A program made the position numbers and the translations under genes. A stretch of 58,151 bases of DNA. Origin: Elusimicrobiota bacterium (GTDB lineage Bacteria; Elusimicrobiota; Elusimicrobia; UBA1565; UBA9628). Shown here in pieces: positions 38,972 to 52,245 of this stretch (position 1 is its first letter; the number at the start of each line of letters is the position of its first letter). Location of the stretch: contig JACPOW010000016.1 in assembly GCA_016191335.1 (NCBI GenBank), forward strand, positions 1-58,151, written 5' to 3'. The notes beneath the pieces were generated by a model that saw nothing but the letters and a program-made list of their open reading frames with translations, was not told the DNA's origin and did not search any database.

Positions 38972-41900
38972 TCAGAACATGTCGTGGCGGGGCGGCCAGT
39001 CGTCGCGGAAACGCGGGTTGCTGGGGCCGCGAGGGAACGAGGGCGACGACGAAGGGGCGGCCGACGACGTGGAGCCGGGGTGGATGTCGGGGACGCTCCC
39101 CTTCGGCTCGGCGGCGCGGCGGCTGAAGAACGGGTCGCGCGCGTAGGCGATGGCGCGCAGGGCCGCGGCGGTCTTCATGGGCCGGGTCTGGTTGGTCAGC
39201 ATCTCCTGCAGCTTCGAGGGCTTGGGCGAGCCGTCGGCGTTGAGGCCCTGCGAACGCGAGTACTCCTCGAACTTGCCGCTGCGCACCAGGACGCGGGCCC
39301 AGGCGTCGGGCGAGTTGAAGTAGGCCTGCTCGTTGACGCTGGCGATGTCGCCCGGGGACTGGTCCATCAGCTCCTCGAGAGGCGCGAGCGTGTCCGCGCC
39401 GCCGGAGAGCTGGGCCGTCACGACGTACGCGTAGAGGATCGGCCAGGAGGAGCCCAGGCTGTAGTCCTTCACCCCGCGCGCGTCGAGGTAGCGCTTCATC
39501 GCGTCGCCGAGGCCGATCGTGAGCCCGAGGCGGGAGACCATGGCGGCCCAGGCGCGCGACATCTCGTAGCCGGTGCGCGAGTAGCTCGTCTGCGTCTTCA
39601 TCATGTTGTGCAGGCGGGCGAGGGCCTCGGGGCTCGTCTCGGTCTCGCCGGCGAGCTTGAGGGCGGCCTGGCGCACGGGCTCGGCGCTGTTGGTGCCCCG
39701 GAAGGTGGTGTCGCGGAATATGCGCTGCAGCTCCTCGGTCCGGCCGAGGCGCTTCATCAGCGCGAGATAGGAGTCGGCGTCGGTCTTCGCGTGGTCGAGG
39801 TCGGCGGGCATGCCGATCGCGCCGAGGGCGCGGTTGGCCGCGTCGGTGATGTCCGTGGTGCGGCCGCCCTTGATCTGGGCGGCGCGGTGCATCGCCTCGC
39901 GCGTGGCGGCGAGGCCGAGCCGGGCGTAGATGGCCGACAGCGCCTGCACGAGCGCGTTGTGCACGGGGACCTCGTAGTGGGAGGTGCCGGTCACGCGGCG
40001 GGCCATGTTCTCGAGCACCTGCACGTCTTCGGCTCCGCCGAAGCGCTCCAGGATGAGGGCGGCGGTCATCGCCAGCGGCCAGTCGGCGCCGACCTCGTTG
40101 GTGACCTTCGGCGAGGACCAGGTGTTCTCCGCCGGGGCCTCGAGGGCGTCCGTGCCCCACTTCTTCGCCTCGATCCAGCCGCGGGCGGTCGCCGCGTCCG
40201 ACGGCTGCGCCAGCATGGCGTAGCCCTCGGCCGCGGCGATCCGGATCGCGTGGCCGTCGCGCTGGTTCTCGGAGATGCGCGACTGGTCGATGACCCGCAT
40301 CATCAGCTCGCGGGTCTTGGCCATCTCCCGGATCTGATGAGGAGTCCCCTTCGCGGCGGGCGCGTCGCTCACGGCGGCGGCGACCTTCGCCCCCGCGGAG
40401 AGCGCCGGCGTCTCCTTGCGGATCTCGAGCCAGATCTGGGTGCCCTCGGGGCCGGTCTTGAAGCCCATGCGCGCGCCCGGGATCGCCGCGAGGCGGCGGT
40501 ACAGGTCGAGCAGGTTGTGGTCCCAGAGCAGGCGCGCGCTCAGGTTGAGGTTGTCGGCCTTCTGCTGGGCGGCGAGGTAGGACTCGGGCGCCGCGCCGCT
40601 GAAGTGCATGACCAGGGACTTCTGGTCGTCGGCGGACAGCTCGTAGGCGCCGGCGACGGCGACGCGGATGGCGTCCGCGTCCACCTTCGCCGTCACGGTG
40701 ACGGGGGCCGGGACGCCGGCCTTCGTCGCCTGCTCCTTGGCGAGCTTGACGACCTGCTTGAGCCAGCCCTCGCCCTGGCCGGAGGCCGGGGTGTCGAGCG
40801 CCTGGATCACGCTCTCGTCCCACCCGGCGGCCTTGACCGAGGCGATGACCTCCGCCGTGATCGCGCGGGTCGCCGCGTCCTTCTTCTTGGAGTTGTTGTG
40901 CTCCGCGACGACCGCGGCGGAGTTCACGGAGAGCCCCGCGCCCGGCGCGAGGAAGGCCTTCGTGCGCTCACCGGCCGTCGAGGCCGAGGCCGCGGACGCC
41001 GTCTCTTTAGGAGGCAGCGCCTTGCGCATGAGCTGGTCGAACAGGTTCTCGGACGGCTCCTCGGCGTCCACGCCGCCGGACAGGCGCTCGATGAGGGAGA
41101 AGAGCTCGGCCGCGACGGCTTCGGACGCGCCCTGCACCGTCGTGCGCGCCGTGTTCTTCTCCGGCTTCTTGCTGGCCTCGAACGTGATCTTGCCGCCGGC
41201 GTAGGTCACCTTGATCGCCGCGCCGCGGACGTCGTTTTTGCCCGCTTCGGCCTCCTTGAGGATCCACTGAGCCATCGGGTCGATGATGTTCTTCTCGATC
41301 GCCGCGGTCATCGGACGCGCGCCGTACAGCGGGCTGTAGCCGTCCACCGCGAGGAAGTCGATCACCGACTGGTCGAACGAGATGTCGGTGTCGTGCCGGT
41401 CGGACAGGAGCTGCTGGAACTCCTTGAGCTGGATCTTCGCGATGAGCGCGATGTCCTGCGGCCGCAGGCGGTTGACGCGGATCCACTTGTTCTTGGACAG
41501 CGGGTCCTCGTCCAGGCGGTTCAGGAACTCCGGCCGGAACCGCTCCTTCAGGGCGGCGCCGACCATGAGGTCGATCTCCTCGTCCCAGAGCTTGTTGACC
41601 TCCTCGACGGTCGGCAGCGGCTTGGCCGACGGGTCCACGGGCTTGCCCGCGGCGACCGCGGCGTTGTGCTCCTCGATCCGGGCGAGCATCTTCGCGTACT
41701 TCTCGCCGTCCACGCCGGACATGCCGGAGTTGGAGGTCATGATGATGACGGTGTTCTTGAAGTCCACGGTCCGGCCCTGGCCGTCCGTGAGGCGGCCGTC
41801 GTCGAGGATCTGGAGCAGGACGTCGAACACCTTCGGATGCGCCTTCTCGACCTCGTCGAAGAGCAGGACGGAGTAGGGCTTCTTGCGCACGGCCTCGGTG

Positions 41901-44900
41901 AGCTGGCCGCCCTCGCCGTAGCCGACGTAGCCGGGAGGCGAGCCGGTCAGGCGCTGGGCCGTGTGCTCCTCCATGTACTCGGACATGTCCATGCGGACCA
42001 TGGCCTCGGGGTCGTTGAACAGGAAGCGCGCGAGCTCCTTGGCGAGGTAGGTCTTGCTGACGCCGGTCGGACCGGTGAGCAGGAACTTGCCCATCGGCCG
42101 GTTCGGGTTGGAGAGGCCGGCCTTGTTGCGGCGCACCGCGTTGGCGATGGCCGTCAGCGCGGGGCCCTGGTTGACCACGCGCTTGCCGATCTCCTCCTCC
42201 ATCTTCGTGTAGCGGGCGGCGTCGTCCTCGCCCAGGTTGAGCTGGCCGGAGGCGATGCCGGTCTTGGCGGCGATCACGCGCTTGACGACCTCGGTCGTGA
42301 CCTTGCCCGAGCCGCCGGCGACGGCGTCGCGCTCGGCGTACAGGGATTCGGCCTTCTTCACGAGGCCGGCGACCTTGTTGTACATGTCCACGGGCAGGGC
42401 CAAGGTGGAGGCGATGCCCTTGTCGATGAGGGCCTGACGGGCCTCGTTGACGGCCACGACGAGCTCGCCCCACGTCTCGCGCAGGTCGAGGGTGATCGCG
42501 GCGCGCAGGTTGTCCGGGCGGGAGAGCTCGGCGGCGTCCTGCACGGCCTTGATGGACTTGTCCGGGTTGAAGTTGGTCTTGTCGAACTGGTCGGTGAGCT
42601 TGGCCGCGTCGACGAGCGCCTGGTCGGGGATGACGGCGTCGTGCAGGGCCTGCAGCCAGGACTTCATCGCGCGGAGGATGGAGGTCGTCTGCGCGACCGT
42701 CGGCTCCTCGACGTCGATCTTCTCGAAGCGGCGGCGGAACGCGTCGTCGCCCTCGATGAACTTCTTGAACTCGGAGCGGGTCGTCGTCGCGATGACCGAG
42801 ATCTTGCCGTCGCGAAGCGGGCCCTTGAGCACGTTCGCGATCTTCTGCCCCGAGTTGTCGAGGAAGAACTTCTGGATCTCGTCCATGAGGACGATGATGT
42901 CGTTGCCGCGCGACGCGTTGCCTTTGTTGAGGCGCGGCAGCAGGTCGAGGATCGCCGACAGCATGCCGACGGGGTCGTCCTGGGTCAGGATCTTGTTGAT
43001 GTCGAGCTCGACGAGCCAGCGGCCCTTGAGCCGCTCGAACTGGAGGAACGCCTGGCTGTCGGCCGCGGTGGCCGCCTCGGCGTCCTCGATCATCTCGGCC
43101 AGGCCCTCGGGCACGGCCGTCTTCCCCACGCCGGCCTCGCCGATGAGGATGACGGAGTTGCGCATGCCGCGCGGGCTGGTCACGATGGGCAGCATCCGCT
43201 TGATCTCGTCGCCGCGCCCGACGACGGGCGGGCGCTTGTCCTCGGGGTTGCGCGCGAGGGGCTTGAGCATGACGCTGAGCAGCTGCACCTGCTTGTCGGT
43301 CAGCTTGCTCTTGCCGTCGCTGAGCGTGACGTTCTGCAGGTACTCCTGCCAGGCCTGCGCCGGGTCGCGGCGCGCGACGACGGGAGCGACGGGCTCGGGC
43401 TCGGCGGCGGCGACGGCCGCGGCGGAGGGCTTCAGCTCCGGCGCGCCGGGCTGCTCCTGGAACGGGCGGATGGAGGAGGCGCCCGAGTGCGGGGCCGCCG
43501 TCTCGTCGACGAGCATCTGCAGGGTCACCGCCATGTCGGCGCCCTGCGGGACCTCGAGCAGAGCGGAGCGCTCGGAGCCGCGGAAGTTCGGGTTCACGAG
43601 CTTGAGGCGGCGGACCTCGGCGTAGTCCTTGATCGACTCCTCGGTCGCGCCCTCGCGGAAGTCGACGAGGATGGCGCGCTGATGGTCGTAGGTCTGGGCG
43701 TCCGGATAGGGCTCGGCGTCCTCGGTCATCTTCGCGGCGACGTTCGGGTGGACCTTCACGGCCTCCACGGACGCCTCGGCGGCGACCTCGGGGGCCATGT
43801 CCAGGGCCGACTGGGAGCCGGGAGCGACGATGGTGTACATGTCGCCGTGGCGGTACACGGCGCTCTGGCCGTGGCGGGCCAGCGCGGCGCGGATGTCGGC
43901 CTCGGAGGTCCCCTCGACGAACTTCACGAGGAGCGCGTTGACGGCGAACTCGGCCTTGCCGTGGGTGGTGACCTTCGCGGGGAGCGTCGGCTTGGCGGGC
44001 GGCGCGGGCGCGGGCTCCACGACGGGCTCGGGAGCGACGGCGGCGGCGGCCGCGGCGGCGCGGGCGCTCAGCGCGGCCATCGCGTCCTGGTTGACGCTGA
44101 CGGACAAGGTGAACGCGCTGCGGGCGACGCGCATCGCCATGTCGGCGACGGCCGCGGATTCCATCAGGAGCTCGTAGACGATCCGGCCCATGCCGTCGTG
44201 GGACACGGAGACGGAGTCGTGGCCCAGGGCGTGGATGAACGCGCGGGCGGCGGCCTCGTCCACGGCGTGGAAGACCGCCTCGACCTTGGTGTAGGTCGGG
44301 TTGTCGCCGCGGATCTTGGAGAGGGCTTCGGCGTCGGAGGCGTCGCCGAAGTAGGCGACGACGGCGCGGTGGGCGCGGATGGCGCGCGTCGCCGGCACGG
44401 CGCGGAACACCCGCGCGGCGCGGGCCGCGTCCTCGTCGGACTGGAAGGTCAGCTTGGTGGAGGCGATGAAGCCCATGCCGTGTCTGTCGCTGATCGTCTC
44501 CCGCGACCGGAGACCGGGCAGGTCCTCCGACATGTCGCTCATGAACTCGCCGTACTGCTCGTCGGTCATCGGGTCGGAGAACTCCACGACGAGGACATGG
44601 CCGGGAAGCGAGTCGTCGGAGGTCACGGCCTTGCCGGCGCCGGGGGCGCGGGCCGGGGCGAAGGGATGCTCCCCTTCGATGAGCGCGGGCACGGCGGCCG
44701 GCACGGCGGGAGCGGGCGCCTGGGCGGCGGGCTCGAGCGGGAGCTCGACCTGGGCGGGATCGGCGGCGGGCTCCTCGGCGGCGGGAGCTTCCGCGGCGGG
44801 CGTCCGTCCGCGGGTCAGGAGCAGGTTGTGGACGAAGCGGGAGACGACGACGGTCTTCACCTCGGCCTCGTCGGCCAGGGCGCGGGCGAGCTCGGCGGCT

Positions 44901-47512
44901 TCGGCGGCGGAGCGGAGGGTCGTCTCGACGACGGTCTGCCCCTTCATCTCCTTGGGCGACGACAGCGCGCGGAAGGCGCGCATCGCGGCGGGGTGGTTGG
45001 CGTACACGGCGCGCACGCGCGCCTGCGGGTAGCCGCTGTTGAGCTTGACCTTCTCCGTCCAGGACGCGGCGCGGACGGCGGGGTTCGTCGAGACGGGCTC
45101 CGCCCTCGGCAGGACCATCGCGTTCCTCAGCTCGGGGTTGACGAGCATCGACGCGACCGAGGCGTCGCGGGCGATGCGGCGCGCCAGCAGATGGATGTCG
45201 GAGGCCATGGCGAGGGTCGCCCGGTAGGTGCGGGGCTCCGCGCCGGCGACGGGGACCAGGCCCTCGAACACCCGCTGGACGTCGGCCTCGGTCGCGCCCT
45301 CGGCGAGCGTGACCACGACGGAGTTGCGGGACAGGTCCGGATCGGGCGTCACCTTGTCCATCGGATCGGGGCGGGCGTCCGCGGGCGCGTCGCCGATGGA
45401 CGGGGCGCTCAGCAGGCGTGACAGCAACGACGGCTTCACGGCGCCGCCGCCCTGGGACTTCTCCTTGTCGGCCGCCTTCATCGCGTCCTTGAGCTTGCCC
45501 TGCTGGTGCTTGTTGTCCCAGCGCGAGAAGATCTCGTGCTCCTTGAACCATTTGCGCAGGCGCTCGTAGAAGGGGGCGTTGCGCGGGTCGGCGAGGACGG
45601 CCTTGATCTTCTCGAGGGAGTCCTCGGGCATGGCCTTCTCTTTAAGGAACTCGGCGGCCTTGTCCGGGTACTCCTTCATCAGGGCCTCGAGCTTCTGGTC
45701 GTCGGAGAGCGCGCGGAACTCCTCCTTGGCCATCATCTCGTCGACCAAGGTCTCGAGGGCGTTCTTCATCGCGTGCTCGGTCTCGTAGGCCGAGACTTCG
45801 CTCTCCAGACCGAGGTCCTCGGCGATCTGCACGATCACCGCGCTCCACTGGCTCATCAGCTCCATGAGGTCCTGGACGGCGGCTTCGGAGCGGACCTTCT
45901 CGCGGATGCACCAGTAGTCGTACGAGCAGGGCAGGGCGAGGAACAGCAGGGGCAGCGCCAGGGCGAAGTTGAAGTAGGCCGCGGCGTAGAAGGCCGCGAG
46001 CGCCGTGAAGGTCACGGTGTTGGCCAAGGTGTTGATGCCCTTCTGGGTGCGCACGCCCATGAAGTCGGCCAGCCAGGTCAGGACGTTGGCCGGACCCTCG
46101 TAGAGGCGGCGGTACATGCCCTGGTAGCCGCGCTCGACCTTCGGGTTGAAGATCCACTTGGCGTAGAAGCGCTCCGGCAGGACGCTGGCGAGGATCTTGC
46201 CGCCGTCGAGCTGGGGCAGGGGCAGCATGTTGAACGCGGCGAGCGCCAGGTTCATCTTCCACAGGCCCGCGGCCACGAGGGCCAGCACGCCGCCCGCGGG
46301 CAGCAGCGCCGCGGCGCCGAACGCGAGGCCCGCGATCAGGAGGTTCGTCGCGGGACCGGCCGCGGCGACCCAGAAGGCGTTGCGCGCCGAGCGCGGCCCG
46401 CCGAACGGGGAGGTCAGGTTGTTGAAGTCGGCGTCCACGGGCTTGCCCGCGCCGAGCAGGATCGGGAACGGGAGCAGGACGCTCGAGATCGCCAGCGACA
46501 GCGCCGGGACGATCACGGTCTTGACCGCGTCGATGTGGACGAACGGGTTGAGGCTGTGGGAGTGCGCGTGCTCCGCGGTCTTGTCGCCGAGGCGGTGCAG
46601 CACCGCGATGTGCGCGACCTCGTGCGCCAGGACGGAGACGACGAGCCCCACGCCGAGCGTCAGCACGGGCACGGCGCCGTAGGAAACCGCCACGGCGACG
46701 GCGGCGATCACGGAGAGCGGAGCGACGATCTTCGCCCAGAGAGGGGTGCCCTGCTTCTCGCGGATCTCGCCGACGCGGCGCGCCGCCTCGGGAGTCGGGA
46801 TCGAGTAGTCGTTGATGATCGCGTTGGAGCGCGCCGACGCCTTGGAGAGCCCGGAGGCGTGGGAGTGCCCGTGGCCCTTCGCCGCGGCGGGCGCGTCGGT
46901 CACGCCGTCCTTGCGGTTGGCGGCGCCATCAAAGATCTCTTGGCCGGAACGGCCAAGGAACGGAAGGTACTTGGCCAAGGCGGCGCGCACGCCGGACTTC
47001 TTCGGCCCCACCCAGCGCGGACCCGCGTCGGCGGCCGTCTTCTTGTCCGTCTTGACCCAGCGCGGACCCGCCGCGGGCGGCGCGGGCTGCTTGGAGTTCC
47101 CCACCCACCGTGGCCCGTCGTCCTTCTTCGGCGCCGGCGCCTGCGAAGCGGGCTCGATGGGCGCGCTCGGCGTCTTCGCCGGCTGTTGCGCGCCCTGGCG
47201 TTCGTCGGCGTTCGCCGCCGCGGGGCGGGGCAAAGCGAGGGCCGTCGGAGCCGCGGCGGGAGATTCCGTGGCATTACCGATCGCCGGGACGAGGTTCGCG
47301 GAGCCGAGAGAGAGGTTGGTCGGAAGAGCGGAGACGCCGCCGAGCGTCGTGGGCGCGAAGTTCGCGCGCGCGGCCTGTCCGGCCTCGGCCGCCTGGCCCG
47401 CGCGGAACGTCTGCGCGGCGACCGGCGTCACGGCGGTCGTCACCATCAGCGCCCCGCTCACGATCACGGCCACGACGGACTTCAAAGCCTTGGTGTTGCG
47501 CAACGATGCCAT
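38972..47512 (-). CDS. Giant fusion: M50 intramembrane metalloprotease - ferredoxin-like repeats - ClpB/ClpC-type AAA+ unfoldase - helical C-terminus
   Basis: 2846 residues. In order: signal peptide or anchor (1-34), Ala/Pro-rich linker with three GPRWV repeats (133, 149, 164) and a His-rich KGHGHSHASG stretch; M50 site-2-protease-like domain with five or six helices, zinc motif HEVAH (297-301) and partner Asp436 in PQLDGGK; helical region (~560-720); about six ferredoxin-like modules (~732-1355) such as LLVKFVEGTSEADI; Clp D1 with Walker A Lys1464 and Walker B Asp1544-Glu1545; D2 with GPTGVSKT (Lys1820), Asp1886-Glu1887, pore loop GYVGYGEGG and RPEFLNRLDE; helical-repeat tail (~2330-2800). 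ATPase residues look intact, except that D1 lacks a clear aromatic pore loop and D2 Walker A has Ser for Gly. Strong ribosome site AGGAG. Processing of membrane proteins is inferred. Confidence 0.88.
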   Translation of the reverse strand: MASLRNTKALKSVVAVIVSGALMVTTAVTPVAAQTFRAGQAAEAGQAARANFAPTTLGGVSALPTNLSLGSANLVPAIGNATESPAAAPTALALPRPAAANADERQGAQQPAKTPSAPIEPASQAPAPKKDDGPRWVGNSKQPAPPAAGPRWVKTDKKTAADAGPRWVGPKKSGVRAALAKYLPFLGRSGQEIFDGAANRKDGVTDAPAAAKGHGHSHASGLSKASARSNAIINDYSIPTPEAARRVGEIREKQGTPLWAKIVAPLSVIAAVAVAVSYGAVPVLTLGVGLVVSVLAHEVAHIAVLHRLGDKTAEHAHSHSLNPFVHIDAVKTVIVPALSLAISSVLLPFPILLGAGKPVDADFNNLTSPFGGPRSARNAFWVAAAGPATNLLIAGLAFGAAALLPAGGVLALVAAGLWKMNLALAAFNMLPLPQLDGGKILASVLPERFYAKWIFNPKVERGYQGMYRRLYEGPANVLTWLADFMGVRTQKGINTLANTVTFTALAAFYAAAYFNFALALPLLFLALPCSYDYWCIREKVRSEAAVQDLMELMSQWSAVIVQIAEDLGLESEVSAYETEHAMKNALETLVDEMMAKEEFRALSDDQKLEALMKEYPDKAAEFLKEKAMPEDSLEKIKAVLADPRNAPFYERLRKWFKEHEIFSRWDNKHQQGKLKDAMKAADKEKSQGGGAVKPSLLSRLLSAPSIGDAPADARPDPMDKVTPDPDLSRNSVVVTLAEGATEADVQRVFEGLVPVAGAEPRTYRATLAMASDIHLLARRIARDASVASMLVNPELRNAMVLPRAEPVSTNPAVRAASWTEKVKLNSGYPQARVRAVYANHPAAMRAFRALSSPKEMKGQTVVETTLRSAAEAAELARALADEAEVKTVVVSRFVHNLLLTRGRTPAAEAPAAEEPAADPAQVELPLEPAAQAPAPAVPAAVPALIEGEHPFAPARAPGAGKAVTSDDSLPGHVLVVEFSDPMTDEQYGEFMSDMSEDLPGLRSRETISDRHGMGFIASTKLTFQSDEDAARAARVFRAVPATRAIRAHRAVVAYFGDASDAEALSKIRGDNPTYTKVEAVFHAVDEAAARAFIHALGHDSVSVSHDGMGRIVYELLMESAAVADMAMRVARSAFTLSVSVNQDAMAALSARAAAAAAAVAPEPVVEPAPAPPAKPTLPAKVTTHGKAEFAVNALLVKFVEGTSEADIRAALARHGQSAVYRHGDMYTIVAPGSQSALDMAPEVAAEASVEAVKVHPNVAAKMTEDAEPYPDAQTYDHQRAILVDFREGATEESIKDYAEVRRLKLVNPNFRGSERSALLEVPQGADMAVTLQMLVDETAAPHSGASSIRPFQEQPGAPELKPSAAAVAAAEPEPVAPVVARRDPAQAWQEYLQNVTLSDGKSKLTDKQVQLLSVMLKPLARNPEDKRPPVVGRGDEIKRMLPIVTSPRGMRNSVILIGEAGVGKTAVPEGLAEMIEDAEAATAADSQAFLQFERLKGRWLVELDINKILTQDDPVGMLSAILDLLPRLNKGNASRGNDIIVLMDEIQKFFLDNSGQKIANVLKGPLRDGKISVIATTTRSEFKKFIEGDDAFRRRFEKIDVEEPTVAQTTSILRAMKSWLQALHDAVIPDQALVDAAKLTDQFDKTNFNPDKSIKAVQDAAELSRPDNLRAAITLDLRETWGELVVAVNEARQALIDKGIASTLALPVDMYNKVAGLVKKAESLYAERDAVAGGSGKVTTEVVKRVIAAKTGIASGQLNLGEDDAARYTKMEEEIGKRVVNQGPALTAIANAVRRNKAGLSNPNRPMGKFLLTGPTGVSKTYLAKELARFLFNDPEAMVRMDMSEYMEEHTAQRLTGSPPGYVGYGEGGQLTEAVRKKPYSVLLFDEVEKAHPKVFDVLLQILDDGRLTDGQGRTVDFKNTVIIMTSNSGMSGVDGEKYAKMLARIEEHNAAVAAGKPVDPSAKPLPTVEEVNKLWDEEIDLMVGAALKERFRPEFLNRLDEDPLSKNKWIRVNRLRPQDIALIAKIQLKEFQQLLSDRHDTDISFDQSVIDFLAVDGYSPLYGARPMTAAIEKNIIDPMAQWILKEAEAGKNDVRGAAIKVTYAGGKITFEASKKPEKNTARTTVQGASEAVAAELFSLIERLSGGVDAEEPSENLFDQLMRKALPPKETASAASASTAGERTKAFLAPGAGLSVNSAAVVAEHNNSKKKDAATRAITAEVIASVKAAGWDESVIQALDTPASGQGEGWLKQVVKLAKEQATKAGVPAPVTVTAKVDADAIRVAVAGAYELSADDQKSLVMHFSGAAPESYLAAQQKADNLNLSARLLWDHNLLDLYRRLAAIPGARMGFKTGPEGTQIWLEIRKETPALSAGAKVAAAVSDAPAAKGTPHQIREMAKTRELMMRVIDQSRISENQRDGHAIRIAAAEGYAMLAQPSDAATARGWIEAKKWGTDALEAPAENTWSSPKVTNEVGADWPLAMTAALILERFGGAEDVQVLENMARRVTGTSHYEVPVHNALVQALSAIYARLGLAATREAMHRAAQIKGGRTTDITDAANRALGAIGMPADLDHAKTDADSYLALMKRLGRTEELQRIFRDTTFRGTNSAEPVRQAALKLAGETETSPEALARLHNMMKTQTSYSRTGYEMSRAWAAMVSRLGLTIGLGDAMKRYLDARGVKDYSLGSSWPILYAYVVTAQLSGGADTLAPLEELMDQSPGDIASVNEQAYFNSPDAWARVLVRSGKFEEYSRSQGLNADGSPKPSKLQEMLTNQTRPMKTAAALRAIAYARDPFFSRRAAEPKGSVPDIHPGSTSSAAPSSSPSFPRGPSNPRFRDDWPPRHDMF
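46996..47120 (-). repeat. Three tandem ~15-codon repeats encoding GPRWV motifs
   Basis: The motif (D/A)GPRWV followed by a Lys/Pro-rich tail occurs at residues 133, 149 and 164 of the giant protein, between signal peptide and protease domain. Codons differ between copies, so the repeat is kept at protein level. It may be a binding or sorting linear motif. Confidence 0.6.
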
Positions 47513-48268: not shown

Positions 48269-49630
48269 GTGAAGACGCTGCAGATCTATCTCGCCGATCT
48301 CAAGGAGCTCCTCGAGGGCCGCGACTTCGTGTCCGCCCGCACGCTCCTCAAGGAGCTCAGCCCGATCGACCTCGCCGACGGGTGGGACCACTTCGACGCC
48401 GACGAGCGCGTGGCGATCTTCCGGCTGAGCACGCGGCAGAAGGCGATGCAGCTCTTCGAGGAGCTGGAGAGCGAGCAGCAGGCCGCGCTCGTGGGCAGCC
48501 TGCAGCGCCAGGACGCGCAGGAGCTGCTCAGCGACCTGGACCCGTCCGAGACGAGCCGCATGATGCGCGACCTGCCGCAGCCGCTCGTGCGCCAGTTCAA
48601 CTCGATCATGAAGAAGGGCGGGCAGTAGTGCGTCCAGCAGTACCTCCAGTACCCCCCCGAGTCGGTCGGCGCGCTGATGCGCGGCCGCTACGTGACGCTC
48701 GACGAGAAGTGGACGACGAAGGCCGCGGTCGAGCGCATCCAGTACAGCACGCGCCTGCGCCGCATCGAGGAGACGCACCTCGACACGCTGATGGTCGTCG
48801 ATTCGAAGAACCACCTGCGCGGCGTCGTCGGCCTCAAGTCGCTCGTCGTCGCCCCGAACGACATGCTGGTGCGCGACCTGATGGACCCCGCGCCGCGGAC
48901 GCTGACGCCGCACCTCGACCAGGAGGAGGCGGTCAAGCTGTTCACGAAGTACAAGCTCAAGAGCGCGCCGGTCCTGGACCCGGAAGGCGCCCTGCTCGGC
49001 GTCGTCGTGTACCGGGACATCTTCGCCATCGCCCGCGAGGAGACGGAAGAGGACTTCGCGAAGATGGCCGGCTTCGCCCGGCCGCGCACGCGCACCGTGG
49101 TGCGCAGCGCCGCCCTGCGCCTGCCCTGGCTCGTCATCACCTGCCTCGGCGGAGTGCTGGTCTCCCACGTCATCAAGAACTTCGAGCAGACGCTGTCGCA
49201 GATCATCGCGCTGGCGAGCTTCTCCCCCCTCATCGCGGGCATGGGCGGCAACGTCGGCTCCCAGACGGCCACCATCATGGTCCGCGGCCTGGCCACCGGC
49301 GAGATCGGCCGCGACGAGGAAGGCAAGGCCATCCTGCACGAGGTGCTCATCGGGCTCCTGCTGGGGATCAGCTACGGCATCGTCGTCGGGGCGCTCGCGG
49401 CCTTCGTGTACCACGCCCGCTACGGCTGGTCCTTCGGGCTCGTGGTCGGGCTGGCGATGACCTTCTCGATGACGGTCGCGTCCTGCATGGCCTCGATCGA
49501 GCCCTTCGTCCTGCGCCGCTTCGGCGTGGACCCCGCCACCGCGACGGGGCCGATGATCACGACGACCACCGACCTGCTCAGCAACGCGTTCTACTTCACG
49601 CTCGCGAGCTGGCTACTCCTGAAGCACTGA
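48269..49630 (+). pseudogene. mgtE: Magnesium transporter MgtE interrupted by in-frame TAG
   Basis: The frame 48269-49630 (454 codons) matches MgtE length (~450). Codons 1-119 are the superhelical MgtE N domain (LLKELSPIDLADGWDHF..LLSDLDPSETSRMMRDLP). Codon 120 (48626-48628) is TAG. The same frame continues with CVQQYLQYPPESVGALM, the conserved link into the CBS pair (YVTLDEKWTTKAAVERI; LMDPAPRTLTPHLDQ), and five helices with the MgtE signatures GMGGNVGSQTATIMVRGLA and DPATATGPMITTTTDLL. One base change (GAG, AAG or CAG to TAG) explains it. ATG 48677 might yield a CBS-channel fragment without the N domain. Mg2+ gating would be affected. Confidence 0.85.
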
Positions 49631-50266
49631 TCAGCCGCGGCGCGAGGCGAGGACGGCCTCGAAGTCGGGGCCGGGCTCGGCCTTGAGGTCGTACCCCAGG
49701 TCGAGGTGGAGGGTGTGGGCGTGGAGCATGAGGCGCTTGGCTCCGCCGACCGGGCGCGGAGGCGGGCCGTAGCGGGGATCGCCCAGGACGGGATGGCCCT
49801 CCGAGCTGAAGTGGGCGCGGATCTGATGCTTGCGGCCGGTCAAGGTCTCGACGCGCAGCAGGGTCGCCCCTCCGAGAGGGCGCTCGACGCGCCAGCGCGT
49901 GACCGCGCGCTTGCCGTCGGGGGCGGGCGCCACGCGGCCCGAGCTGAACTCGCGCAGCGGCTTATCGATCTCGCCGGAGCCGGTCATCGTCCCGAGGACG
50001 GCCACGAGGTACTCCTTCTTCGCGCGCCTCTCCTCGAACTCCTTGGAGAGCAGGCGATGGGTCTCCGCGTCCTTGGCGAACACGAGGATGCCGCTCGCGT
50101 CGAGGTCGAGGCGGTGGACGGTGAAGATCTTCTTGCGCAAGCGCCGCTCGATCTCGACGTTGACGGCGATGCCGATCTCGCCGCGTCCAGGGATGGTGGG
50201 CAGGCCGACGGGCTTGTTCACCGCGACGATGCGGTCGTCCTCGAAGATGATGGGCGTCTCGATCAT
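49631..50266 (-). CDS. RNA pseudouridine synthase, RluA family
   Basis: 211 residues from ATG 50266, overlapping the upstream stop (ATGA). Catalytic Asp54 in HRLDLDASGILVFAK, plus NKPVGLPTIPG and the C-terminal GRKHQIRAHFSSEGHPVLGDPRYG, all standard for RluA-type enzymes that convert uridine to pseudouridine in rRNA or tRNA. There is no N-terminal S4 domain, so it resembles the short RluA/RluE-sized group; the target site is unknown. The gene directly abuts the convergent mgtE end. Confidence 0.92.
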   Translation of the reverse strand: MIETPIIFEDDRIVAVNKPVGLPTIPGRGEIGIAVNVEIERRLRKKIFTVHRLDLDASGILVFAKDAETHRLLSKEFEERRAKKEYLVAVLGTMTGSGEIDKPLREFSSGRVAPAPDGKRAVTRWRVERPLGGATLLRVETLTGRKHQIRAHFSSEGHPVLGDPRYGPPPRPVGGAKRLMLHAHTLHLDLGYDLKAEPGPDFEAVLASRRG

Positions 50267-51813
50267 CTCGCCCCCGTGACGCGCGCCCAGGCGGCGGCGG
50301 GCTCGAGCGCGCCCTTGCCCGCGATGACGAGGTTGAGGAACTCCCACGCGGCCTCGGGGCGGCCCGTGACGGCGGCCGCCTCGTAGGCGGCGCCGGCCAA
50401 GGTCCCCTTCAGGTACGGCGCGCCCTCGCCGCCGAAGCCGCCGCGCGCCCACGCGCGGCCGCCGTCGAAGGAGCTCATGATGCCCGCGTGGACGGTGCCG
50501 GCCCGGCCGGCGCGGACCTCGTCGAGGCCGACGAGCTCGACGGCGCGCAGGACCTCGACGGCGACCGCGGCGATCTCCGCCCCGTACTTCGTCGAGACGA
50601 AGCCCTCGTCCTGCAGCCAGTGCACGTACTCGTGGGAGAACAGCGGCCGGTAGTTGGCCGCGAGGTCGGGCAGACGGCGCCAGTCGGGCTTGACCATCAG
50701 GCGGATGCCGAAATCGGAGCGGAAGTGGCCGTCGGGGATGCCGATATGGTCGGGATGGTCCTTGTAGGTGGTCGCGGAGTGCCAGTACATGCGGTAGCCG
50801 TTCGTGCGCCCGAGCACGTCCGCCTTGTAGGCGGCGTCGACCCCGCGCCCGAGCTTGGCGGCGATCACCGGGAACTCCGCGGCGGCGAGCGCGGGGATGG
50901 TCCGGGCGACGAGGACATGCTCGTTGACCGGCGCTTCGCCCGCGCCGAGCCCTTCCGCGACGGCCTTCCTCCAAGGGGTGCGGCGGACGGCGACGCCCTC
51001 GCGCGCGAGGACCAGAGGATACAGCCCCGGGATGCGGGAGGCCAGCGCCGAGAGGCCCGAGCGCAGCGCGGCCCCCGCGCCCGCGGGCACCGTCGCGTTC
51101 CACTCGACGACGCCCGCCTTCGAGACCACGAAGAAACGCCCGGCCTCGCCGGCCGCCGCCTCGACCTCCTCCGGGGTCGGATAGGCCGTGGCGGCTCCCG
51201 CGCGCGGGACCAGGCGCCAGCGGCCGTCGGGGGCGAGCAGCAGCAGCCGCGACTCGCCGCCCTCGGCCAGGGCGCGCAGGCCCTCCAGGGTCGGCGCGTC
51301 CTCGACCGCCGCGAGCTTCCCGGCCGCGGCCTTCGCGGGCTTGCGCGCGGGCGAGAGCAGGCGCAGGAACGAGCCGCGGCCCGCCGCCGCGGGCGCGGAG
51401 AAGACCCCGTCGCCGAGCGCGGCGGGGGCGCCGAGCTGGGCGCGCGCGTTGAAGTCCGCCTCGGCCGCGCCGGCCGCGTCGCCCGAGGCCAGCTTCGAGA
51501 CGTCGAGCGCGGGCGCGGCCAGGGACTTGATCAGGAGAGGGCGCGGCTCGGCGACGGCGGGCTTGACCGCCGCCGGGAGCGGGACGGCGAGAGCGGGGGC
51601 CGCGAAAGGGACGGCGAGCGGCGCCGGGGACAGGCCCGTCAGAGGGACGAGGGAGTTCGACGCCAGCTGGAGCGGGACGGCGCCGAGGGGCGAGACGACC
51701 GACGGCGACGCGCCCAGGTTCCCCAGCTCGGGGACGACCTCGACCCGCGCCGTCCCCGCGCGGGCGGGCGCGGCGAGGGCGACGGCCAGGACGGCGGAGA
51801 GGCGGGCGCTCAT
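50263..51813 (-). CDS. Secreted protein with HExxH zinc-protease-like motif and Ala/Pro-rich N-terminus
   Basis: 516 residues from ATG 51813; a longer frame to 52110 would run antisense through a response regulator and is rejected. Signal peptide MSARLSAVLAVALAAPARAG, then ~150 residues rich in Ala, Pro, Leu, then a folded region. LFSHEYVHWLQDEG (HEYVH, 394-398) looks like a gluzincin-type metal site; a downstream acidic helix (YGAEIAAVAVEVLRAVE) may give the third ligand. A conserved aromatic block YRMYWHSATTYKDHPDHIGIP precedes it. Protease activity is inferred only from the motif. Confidence 0.7.
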   Translation of the reverse strand: MSARLSAVLAVALAAPARAGTARVEVVPELGNLGASPSVVSPLGAVPLQLASNSLVPLTGLSPAPLAVPFAAPALAVPLPAAVKPAVAEPRPLLIKSLAAPALDVSKLASGDAAGAAEADFNARAQLGAPAALGDGVFSAPAAAGRGSFLRLLSPARKPAKAAAGKLAAVEDAPTLEGLRALAEGGESRLLLLAPDGRWRLVPRAGAATAYPTPEEVEAAAGEAGRFFVVSKAGVVEWNATVPAGAGAALRSGLSALASRIPGLYPLVLAREGVAVRRTPWRKAVAEGLGAGEAPVNEHVLVARTIPALAAAEFPVIAAKLGRGVDAAYKADVLGRTNGYRMYWHSATTYKDHPDHIGIPDGHFRSDFGIRLMVKPDWRRLPDLAANYRPLFSHEYVHWLQDEGFVSTKYGAEIAAVAVEVLRAVELVGLDEVRAGRAGTVHAGIMSSFDGGRAWARGGFGGEGAPYLKGTLAGAAYEAAAVTGRPEAAWEFLNLVIAGKGALEPAAAWARVTGAR

Positions 51814-51820
51814 TCCCCCG

Positions 51821-51826
51821 AGCATA
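51821..51826 (-). promoter_or_regulatory. -10 box (TATGCT), leaderless-type promoter
   Basis: On the minus strand TATGCT ends 7 bases before ATG 51813. The CGGGGGA between could also be read as a weak ribosome site. Confidence 0.35.
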
Positions 51827-51863
51827 ACAGCCGTGCGGAGGCCGCGCCAGGGGTCGAAAGACC

Positions 51864-51869
51864 TATAAT
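51864..51869 (+). promoter_or_regulatory. -10 box (TATAAT) of the response regulator-permease operon
   Basis: Consensus TATAAT, 7 bases before GTG 51877, with no ribosome site at usual spacing. It implies a leaderless mRNA. Confidence 0.52.
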
Positions 51870-51876
51870 AGGAAGC

Positions 51877-52245
51877 GTGAAAGGAGCGAAGGTCCTGGTG
51901 GTCGACGACGAGCGGGCGAGCCTCGAGATCCTCTTGCGCTGCCTGCGCCAGAAGGGTCACACGGGCGTCGGCGCCGACAGCGCCGAGGAGGCCGCGCGCG
52001 CGCTGGCCGCGGGAGCCTTCGACCTGGTCCTCCTCGACCATGTCCTGCCGGGGCAGACCGGGATGCAGGCCATCCCCCGCCTGCGCGCCCTGACGCGCGC
52101 GCCGATTCACATCATGAGCGGCTACTCCGACGACGAGACCCGCCGCGACGCCGTGCTGCTGGGAGCGTCGGGCTTCATCCCCAAGCCCATCGAGTTCGAG
52201 GCCGTGTCCTCCCTGCTCGAGTCCCTGCCGGAGCGCCCGGCGTGA
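51877..52245 (+). CDS. Single-domain response regulator
   Basis: 122 residues from GTG 51877. Receiver domain with VDDE (9-12), phosphoacceptor Asp54 in LVLLDHVLPGQTG, Ser in IMSGYS and Lys in FIPKPIEFE. No output domain and no kinase beside it. Its TGA overlaps the GTG of the purine permease gene, an unusual pairing that may mean post-translational or transcriptional control of purine uptake; this is context only. Confidence 0.85.
   Translation: MKGAKVLVVDDERASLEILLRCLRQKGHTGVGADSAEEAARALAAGAFDLVLLDHVLPGQTGMQAIPRLRALTRAPIHIMSGYSDDETRRDAVLLGASGFIPKPIEFEAVSSLLESLPERPA

Follow-up and report, generated by a model that had tools for sequence, protein, structure and literature searches.

A predicted single-chain fusion of a site-2 protease core and a two-module Hsp100-type ATPase in Elusimicrobiota

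How site-2 proteases (S2Ps) gain access to folded membrane substrates, and how cutting is coupled to extraction, is usually studied with separate proteins, e.g., YqgP and FtsH; Derlin and p97 are a further separate-protein example of the same coupling. Here we describe a gene, P0001, in a stretch of 58,151 nucleotides from an Elusimicrobiota bacterium (JACPOW010000016.1; hereafter the window, which is the entire contig C101 of a draft genome of 3.66 Mb in 135 contigs) that is predicted to carry an S2P core and a two-module Hsp100-type ATPase on one polypeptide. A natural covalent fusion with both active sites intact would let this coupling be tested in one chain, and it points to a little-noticed style in which uncultured bacteria assemble membrane proteostasis machines, many fused proteins bearing similar leaders.

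The M50B S2Ps SpoIVFB and MJ0392 share with the fusion the HExxH helix and the GPxxN and DGG motifs; where SpoIVFB has a regulatory CBS domain on its C-terminal, cytosolic side, the fusion has two ATPase modules and repeats, and it differs from both S2Ps by a leader and an Ala/Pro-rich linker ahead of the core. ClpB and ClpC (class I Hsp100) have in common with it two AAA+ modules (D1 and D2), the D2-small domain, the pore loop and the Walker motifs, whereas the fusion has a membrane anchor, no detectable Clp_N domain, no ClpP loop and AAA+ regions that form a clade of their own. AAA+ rings are usually hexamers, Hsp100 rings thread their substrates from the D1 face to the D2 face, and ClpA and ClpC carry a ClpP loop of the [ILMV]GF type after sensor 1 of D2. 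FtsH, like the fusion, combines a membrane-anchored ATPase and a metalloprotease in one chain, but its protease is M41, whereas that of the fusion is an intramembrane M50 placed N-terminal to a motor of two ATPase modules. In Bacillus subtilis an intramembrane protease is paired with an AAA protease in membrane-protein quality control: according to PMC7231995, YqgP cleaves MgtE and serves FtsH as an adaptor for its degradation, the adaptor role being independent of YqgP's own proteolysis. This system differs from the fusion in consisting of two proteins, of which one is a rhomboid, not an S2P, and the other FtsH, not a Clp. Short stand-alone S2Ps of the same phylum (ca. 210 aa) match the same M50 profile (118-141 bits among the matches listed) but are unfused and lack the helical domain that follows the M50 core of the fusion. 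No description of an M50-Clp fusion was found in the literature searched, in agreement with the original prediction, made from the letters of the window, which knew of no characterised fusion of an S2P with ClpB or ClpC.

An S2P core and two AAA+ modules in one frame

The original prediction had proposed that a single frame joins an M50 protease to a two-module Clp unfoldase, and this is borne out (Table 1): the HEVAH and LDGGK motifs stand at residues 297 and 435, as it had said, and Walker A and B, the GYVG pore loop and RPEFLNR are all present, although the AAA+ region, which it had confined to residues 1464-1950, ends near 2090, because GYVG is found at 1861 and RPEFLNR at 1993. The membrane core consists, in order, of an extra helix (TM1), the HExxH helix, the GPxxN helix, the DGG helix and a C-terminal hairpin or long helix; HExxH and the distal aspartate of a DG motif thus both lie within hydrophobic helices, as in M50/S2P proteases. 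Peptidase_M50 (PF02163) matched P0001 at 27.4 bits, a thin pass of the 27.2-bit cut-off, and three relatives at 41.8 (P0004), 28.9 (P0002) and 22.0 bits (P0003, under the cut-off), and a profile of the M50 core matched the structures 3b4r (E 7e-8) and 8vjl (SpoIVFB; E 8e-4). In the ATPase part, Pfam identified AAA_2 (212 bits) and ClpB_D2-small (60 bits), and the sequence hallmarks of class I Hsp100/Clp proteins are present: a pair of AAA+ modules, their Walker A and B motifs and the D2-small domain. Walker A reads GEAGVGKT at 1458 in D1 and GPTGVSKT at 1814 in D2, where Walker B lies at 1886. The best Clp match in NCBIfam, ClpB (TIGR03346), reached 492 bits against an equivalog cut-off of 1232, Clp_N was not found among 16 Pfam families at E 0.1, and Peptidase M41, the hallmark of FtsH, was not matched by Pfam. 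By these tests the protein is not a ClpB, ClpC or FtsH; it probably works like a membrane AAA protease and, as an architecture, appears to be a new variant.

An alignment of the M50 core and the helical domain (A2) was run against 340 genomes of the phylum, with up to four candidates scored per genome. Among the matches listed, 25 were strong (298-795 bits, in 24 genomes), and the remainder reached at most 141 bits, mostly in frames of ca. 210-260 aa. An AAA+ Walker A lies in the same frame as M50 in 20 of the 24 genomes (both Walker A sites in 18; the contigs of G044 and G232 stop after the first), three contigs (G017, G035 and G047) stop before any AAA+ Walker A, and the G010 frame is split into four pieces that follow one another in the right order. 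That homologues might always encode M50 and Clp separately, a possibility raised by the original prediction, is therefore not what these genomes hold. Two separate genes or a misassembly in the window are ruled out by the homologues, and the notion that an assembly error or a chance open frame has joined two genes is scarcely credible: the host genome is a draft of 135 contigs, GC-rich frames can be long by chance and the G010 frame is in pieces, but one frame runs through both parts in the assemblies of 20 genomes, with low ratios of non-synonymous to synonymous substitution (dN/dS) in both.

A C-terminal alignment, with up to three candidates scored per genome, found matches in 26 of the 340 genomes, and no working unfused copy was found in these genomes with either this or the M50 alignment. 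Six pieces lacking M50 (G004:C88, G012:C240, G017:C28, G232:C77, G035:C127 and G047:C108) are truncated at their 5' side by a contig end. G005:C52 (the same match as L043) is a fragment preceded by a stop and starting within D2 past its Walker A, and its genome holds a full-length fusion copy besides; G057:C87 is a weak 5'-open match (32.7 bits); the short frames G006:C47 (401 aa), G005:C11 (158 aa) and G025:C98 (330 aa) were set aside in this check. In G223 the fusion is embedded in a frame of 5022 aa, and a second M50+AAA+ frame, G003:C68, contains masked stretches and has its tail in another frame. Beyond the phylum, a scan with six peptide patterns across 84,980 species genomes, not exhaustive since it extends to the best 80 loci, returned seven Elusimicrobia, whereas the other 73 loci match the Clp part alone (query residues ca. 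1413-2138). The comparison supports a fusion that, judged from sequence, is conserved across a bacterial class as a single polypeptide with an S2P core and a two-module Hsp100-type ATPase.

If this phylum fuses genes freely, the chain could be a polyprotein that is cut after synthesis, or a string of enzymes that work separately. Unrelated enzymes are fused behind similar leaders in the same genome, many enzymes stand in a single frame of 17,755 codons in G048, and Elusimicrobiota are reported to be rich in huge proteins of more than 5000 aa (PMC11573180, in whose main text neither M50 nor Clp was found). The HEAT-like tail, too, is not always in the same frame: in G022:C12 (L176:8337-17622) the fusion frame is 1830 aa long, and the HEAT-like tail is on an overlapping frame of 1338 aa that starts at its end, either as a separate gene or through a frameshift. 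Yet all 20 members of sufficient length have M50, helical domain and AAA+ in this order, with a varying number of repeats in between, and the AAA+ regions of 16 fusions form one clade against 11 outgroup Clps (a small outgroup, with long branches flagged). We consider a polyprotein or a mere string of enzymes rather unlikely.

Pairwise dN/dS between P0001 and three relatives was 0.09-0.27 in the M50 core, 0.09-0.29 in the helical domain, 0.11-0.45 in D1 and 0.16-0.24 in D2, compared with 0.34-0.64 in leader and linker, 0.66-1.05 in residues 701-1250 and 0.22-0.45 in residues 1251-1420; both enzymes are under purifying selection, and most of the region between them is unconstrained. All 15 members compared keep the H, E and H of HExxH, the N of GPxxN and the D of DGG without exception, and all 16 sequences compared have the Walker A lysine and the Walker B aspartate and glutamate in both D1 and D2, so both enzymes look active. 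A ClpP loop ([ILMV]G[FLY]) between the TSN motif and RPEF of D2, a stretch of 51-164 residues, is absent from all 16 sequences, whereas a ClpC-like protein of the same genome (L001) has SLGF at this position; the motor therefore probably has no ClpP partner. Two cysteines at the end of the membrane core (529 and 535) are likewise invariant in 15 of 15 members.

The middle region contains units of ca. 65 residues (730-794, 821-891, a weak one at 973-1064, and 1192-1257), which match the fervidolysin N-propeptide family when the region of the last unit is scanned by itself (22.6 bits, cut-off 21); this family was matched in three of six rows at E up to 10 (best 6e-5). With an iterated custom profile, 0-11 copies were counted among 18 sequences, P0001 having four, one of them weak. 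Searching PDB profiles with the repeat region gave no useful match. Fast change together with variation in copy number suggests a role in substrate recognition. In an AlphaFold2 (AF2) model of residues 2126-2790 (mean predicted local distance difference test score, pLDDT, 69), alpha repeats come after an alpha/beta domain that is predicted with modest confidence. The best Foldseek matches to this model include GHKL kinase regions (RetS, CheA) and HEAT/ARM proteins, none of them at E below 1e-3, so that support for either is weak; the alpha/beta domain is perhaps a degenerate GHKL fold.

Table 1. Features of the fusion gene P0001 and its divergent neighbour, with positions in the window.
Feature	Residues	Position	Strand	Basis or remark
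M50-Clp fusion gene P0001		38972..47512	minus	2846 aa, no internal stop
Leader, signal-peptide-like	1-34	47411..47512	minus	resembles leaders of other long frames of the same genome
Ala/Pro-rich linker	35-255	46748..47410	minus	GPRWV repeats and His-rich stretch
M50/S2P membrane core	256-530	45923..46747	minus	profile, motifs and hydropathy
HEVAH zinc motif	297-301	46610..46624	minus	H, E, H invariant 15/15
LDGGK motif	435-439	46196..46210	minus	D436 invariant 15/15
Helical domain	531-690	45443..45922	minus	AF2 mean pLDDT 71-90 over 548-667
Fast-evolving middle region	721-1345	43478..45352	minus	dN/dS and repeat profile
AAA+ module D1	1425-1690	42443..43240	minus	Walker A 1458, Walker B 1544
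AAA+ module D2 and small domain	1781-2090	41243..42172	minus	Pfam and motifs
Alpha/beta domain	2208-2366	40415..40891	minus	weak structural match, modest pLDDT
HEAT-like alpha repeats	2415-2790	39143..40270	minus	AF2 and weak Foldseek matches
mgtE neighbour (CBS + MgtE)		48677..49630	plus	divergent from the fusion gene; candidate substrate only

Orientation in the membrane and possible mode of action

The reading we favour, tentatively and at somewhat less than an even chance, is that of a membrane-anchored, ATP-driven S2P-Hsp100 protein-remodelling protease that would act like the YqgP-FtsH pair. The S2P core would be embedded in the inner membrane, its active site close to the cytosolic face, and the helical domain, the propeptide-like repeats, the D1-D2 motor and the HEAT-like tail would hang in the cytosol, with repeats and tail recruiting membrane-protein substrates. 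The motor, presumably a hexamer, would grip the cytosolic part of a substrate and, threading it through D1 first and D2 second, draw it away from the membrane; a transmembrane helix might in this way be dislocated while the S2P core clips it, or an already clipped product pulled off; the core may clip the pulled helix or act mainly as a receptor, and the product would be released to the cytosol rather than handed to ClpP. The cytosolic side, the hexamer, the direction of pulling, its coupling to cleavage and the substrate are parts of the model that we infer, as is the joint action of motor and protease. Given D1-to-D2 threading, and with the N-terminal side of the chain in the membrane, pulling would be directed away from the bilayer, which would make the dislocation or stripping of membrane proteins or S2P products the motor's natural job; FtsH-like feeding into the protease is not an obvious geometry, because the protease is N-terminal to the motor. 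The original prediction had allowed for extraction either into or out of the protease, and pulling away from the membrane would be the favoured one of the two directions.

The conservation of both catalytic sets implies ATP at the AAA+ side and therefore a probably cytosolic ATPase. Loop charges were counted in 15 rows of the M50-core alignment: all 15 have 6-11 lysines or arginines (K/R) behind the DGG helix, and 14 of them have 3-7 directly ahead of TM1. The loop joining TM1 to the HExxH helix is free of K/R in the 14 rows measured, and the one from the GPxxN to the DGG helix has no more than one. Several of these charges would fit the usual S2P orientation with a cytosolic C-terminus, as in SpoIVFB, in which TM4-6 end, on the cytosolic side, above the C-terminal CBS domain (PMC11486902). 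Among 14 S2P loci examined, 13 frames were printed, nine of which begin directly with the HExxH helix (motif at residue 18-26); two others lie within longer frames, the upstream part of which is not hydrophobic by eye, and two (L031, L032) are long M50 frames of another kind. TM1 is therefore an addition to the core that need not span and could be re-entrant. The possibility that residues 327-356 form a full membrane helix was rejected, since HExxH and DGG would then be set at opposite faces.

The leader complicates this picture. By eye, all 20 complete N-termini carry such a signal-like leader, most of them closing with an A-x-A-type sequence, and the alignment and profile built from it comprise 17 leaders (15 of those 20 and two others). 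At E below 0.003 the profile found nine places in this genome, including two (the fusion and an M50-S8 frame) whose leaders were used to build it. Relaxing the limit to E 1 gave 17 places, of which 13 belong to frames of at least 795 aa; 11 places were fetched and 10 scanned with Pfam, L217 being left out because its frame looked spurious by eye. Similar leaders stand before ATP-using domains in an ATP-grasp fusion (L208, E 1e-7), in an FtsH (L215, E 0.07) and in a PQ-loop protein with uridine-kinase-like and adenylate-kinase domains (L216, E 0.09), which suggests a habit of this genome, although the last two of the three matches are weak. The conflict between signal peptide, membrane topology and a cytosolic ATPase, to which the original prediction had drawn attention, is thus real, is softened rather than removed by these other fusions, and is not private to this gene.

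Several points weigh against the reading we favour. Leader and TM1 both look membrane-spanning, and if both span, either the S2P core is inverted or the ATPase periplasmic. Two loops do not help, K/R outnumbering acidic residues in only four of 15 rows behind the HExxH helix and in no row behind the final hydrophobic stretch of the core. A further hydrophobic stretch follows the helical domain (equivalents of residues 690-735) in 13 of 16 rows (L039, L040, L042, L122, L124, L126 and L128-L134, but not P0001, L044 and L119); it is hairpin-like in most and a single segment by hydropathy in about five (L039, L129-L132), and a single crossing there would flip the side of the downstream chain. The leader-headed FtsH frame, whose leader match is weak, has two later hydrophobic segments (68-86 and 439-468) rather than one. 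The AF2 models of residues 228-700 from six sequences are poor in the M50 region (pLDDT 51), and no claim on the M50 fold is therefore drawn from them. In the D2 Walker A, the residue before the lysine is serine in P0001 and glycine in the other 15 of 16 sequences. SpoIVFB:Pro-sigmaK has reportedly been seen as a tetrameric species, in contrast to the usually hexameric AAA+ rings. The orientation points would be met if the leader were a true signal peptide and TM1 a spanning helix, with the AAA+ part periplasmic or the S2P inverted; the uniform leader, the hydrophobic TM1 and the two loops that are not net positive in most or all rows agree with this, yet a periplasm without ATP does not go together with two conserved ATPase sites, and the positive loop after DGG also speaks against it, so that this arrangement appears quite improbable.

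In another arrangement, the S2P core would be chiefly an anchor and receptor, and the Clp motor would extract proteins for release or for another protease, cleavage being uncoupled from pulling. Hsp100 motors without the ClpP loop, as here, normally release their substrate, and the proteolysis-independent service of YqgP to FtsH (PMC7231995) offers a precedent; a mere anchor, however, would not need the five S2P residues that are invariant in 15 of 15 members, and we regard such an adaptor as unlikely.

A lead to a substrate for the remodelling protease comes from the neighbourhood. The original prediction had suggested comparing neighbours in related genomes: mgtE lies divergently upstream at six of nine same-genus loci with at least 4 kb upstream (the window, L119, L039, L044, L122 and L120). 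By analogy with YqgP-FtsH, which acts on MgtE, MgtE may be a substrate of the fusion. Equally against the favoured reading, mgtE is not upstream at L040, L042 and L124, and none of nine loci from outside the genus, each with 1 kb or more of upstream sequence, has it; plain gene order among close relatives may therefore explain the neighbourhood as well. The most inclusive view, that one chain uses ATP to dislocate membrane proteins, MgtE among them, and cuts them within the bilayer, and that it is one product of a wider Elusimicrobiota programme which places a shared leader on giant fused membrane proteins built from proteases, chaperones and ATP-using enzymes (e.g., M50-Clp, M50-S8, M48-MFS, leader-FtsH, a Bat-type protein and the frame of 17,755 codons), is doubtful.

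Neighbouring features and other leader-headed or giant frames

A long plus-strand frame opposite the fusion gene (38984-45421) is most likely a shadow frame of the kind usual in GC-rich genes. Rfam at gathering thresholds matched nothing within the window, and one promoter-like and two terminator-like sites found by scan near the gene start were used for no conclusion. Further along the window, a minus-strand frame of 615 aa (50263-52110), with no Pfam match at E 0.001, has an internal signal-like start, an Ala/Pro-rich stretch and a HEYVHW motif.

Similar leaders, with a hydrophobic stretch often followed by SPG...Y.A.AQ, head many long frames of this genome (G000:C89, C31, C91, C68, C112, C32, C17, C106 and C135; loci L136 and L207-L216), with match strengths from E 7e-13 to 0.09. 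They include the M50-S8, FtsH, ATP-grasp and PQ-loop/kinase/adenylate kinase frames, a PspA fusion, a Rce1-like protein, a protein combining S8 with glycogen-type enzymes, and two frames of 978 and 5601 aa without a Pfam match. The leader-M50-S8 fusion (L136; Pfam M50 42.6 bits, S8 95.7 bits) has a propeptide-like stretch before S8 by eye, in which the repeat-unit profile does not detect any unit. At the same locus (L136:476-5332), a frame of 1619 aa with a signal-like start and many hydrophobic segments matches Peptidase_M48 (47 bits) and MFS (43 bits). A leader-headed frame of 3217 aa (L211:244-9894) combines BatA (22.8 bits, under the cut-off), VWA, TPR and DUF58, domains that usually reside on separate aerotolerance genes. 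The open frame of 17,755 codons (G048:C5, ca. 8767-62031; L137-L140) holds PLD-like, S8, M48, glycosyltransferase, DUF885, nuclease-like, M50, AAA_2, M14, full ClpB, met-zincin and M48 domains, and its AAA_2 module follows M50 after ca. 240 residues.

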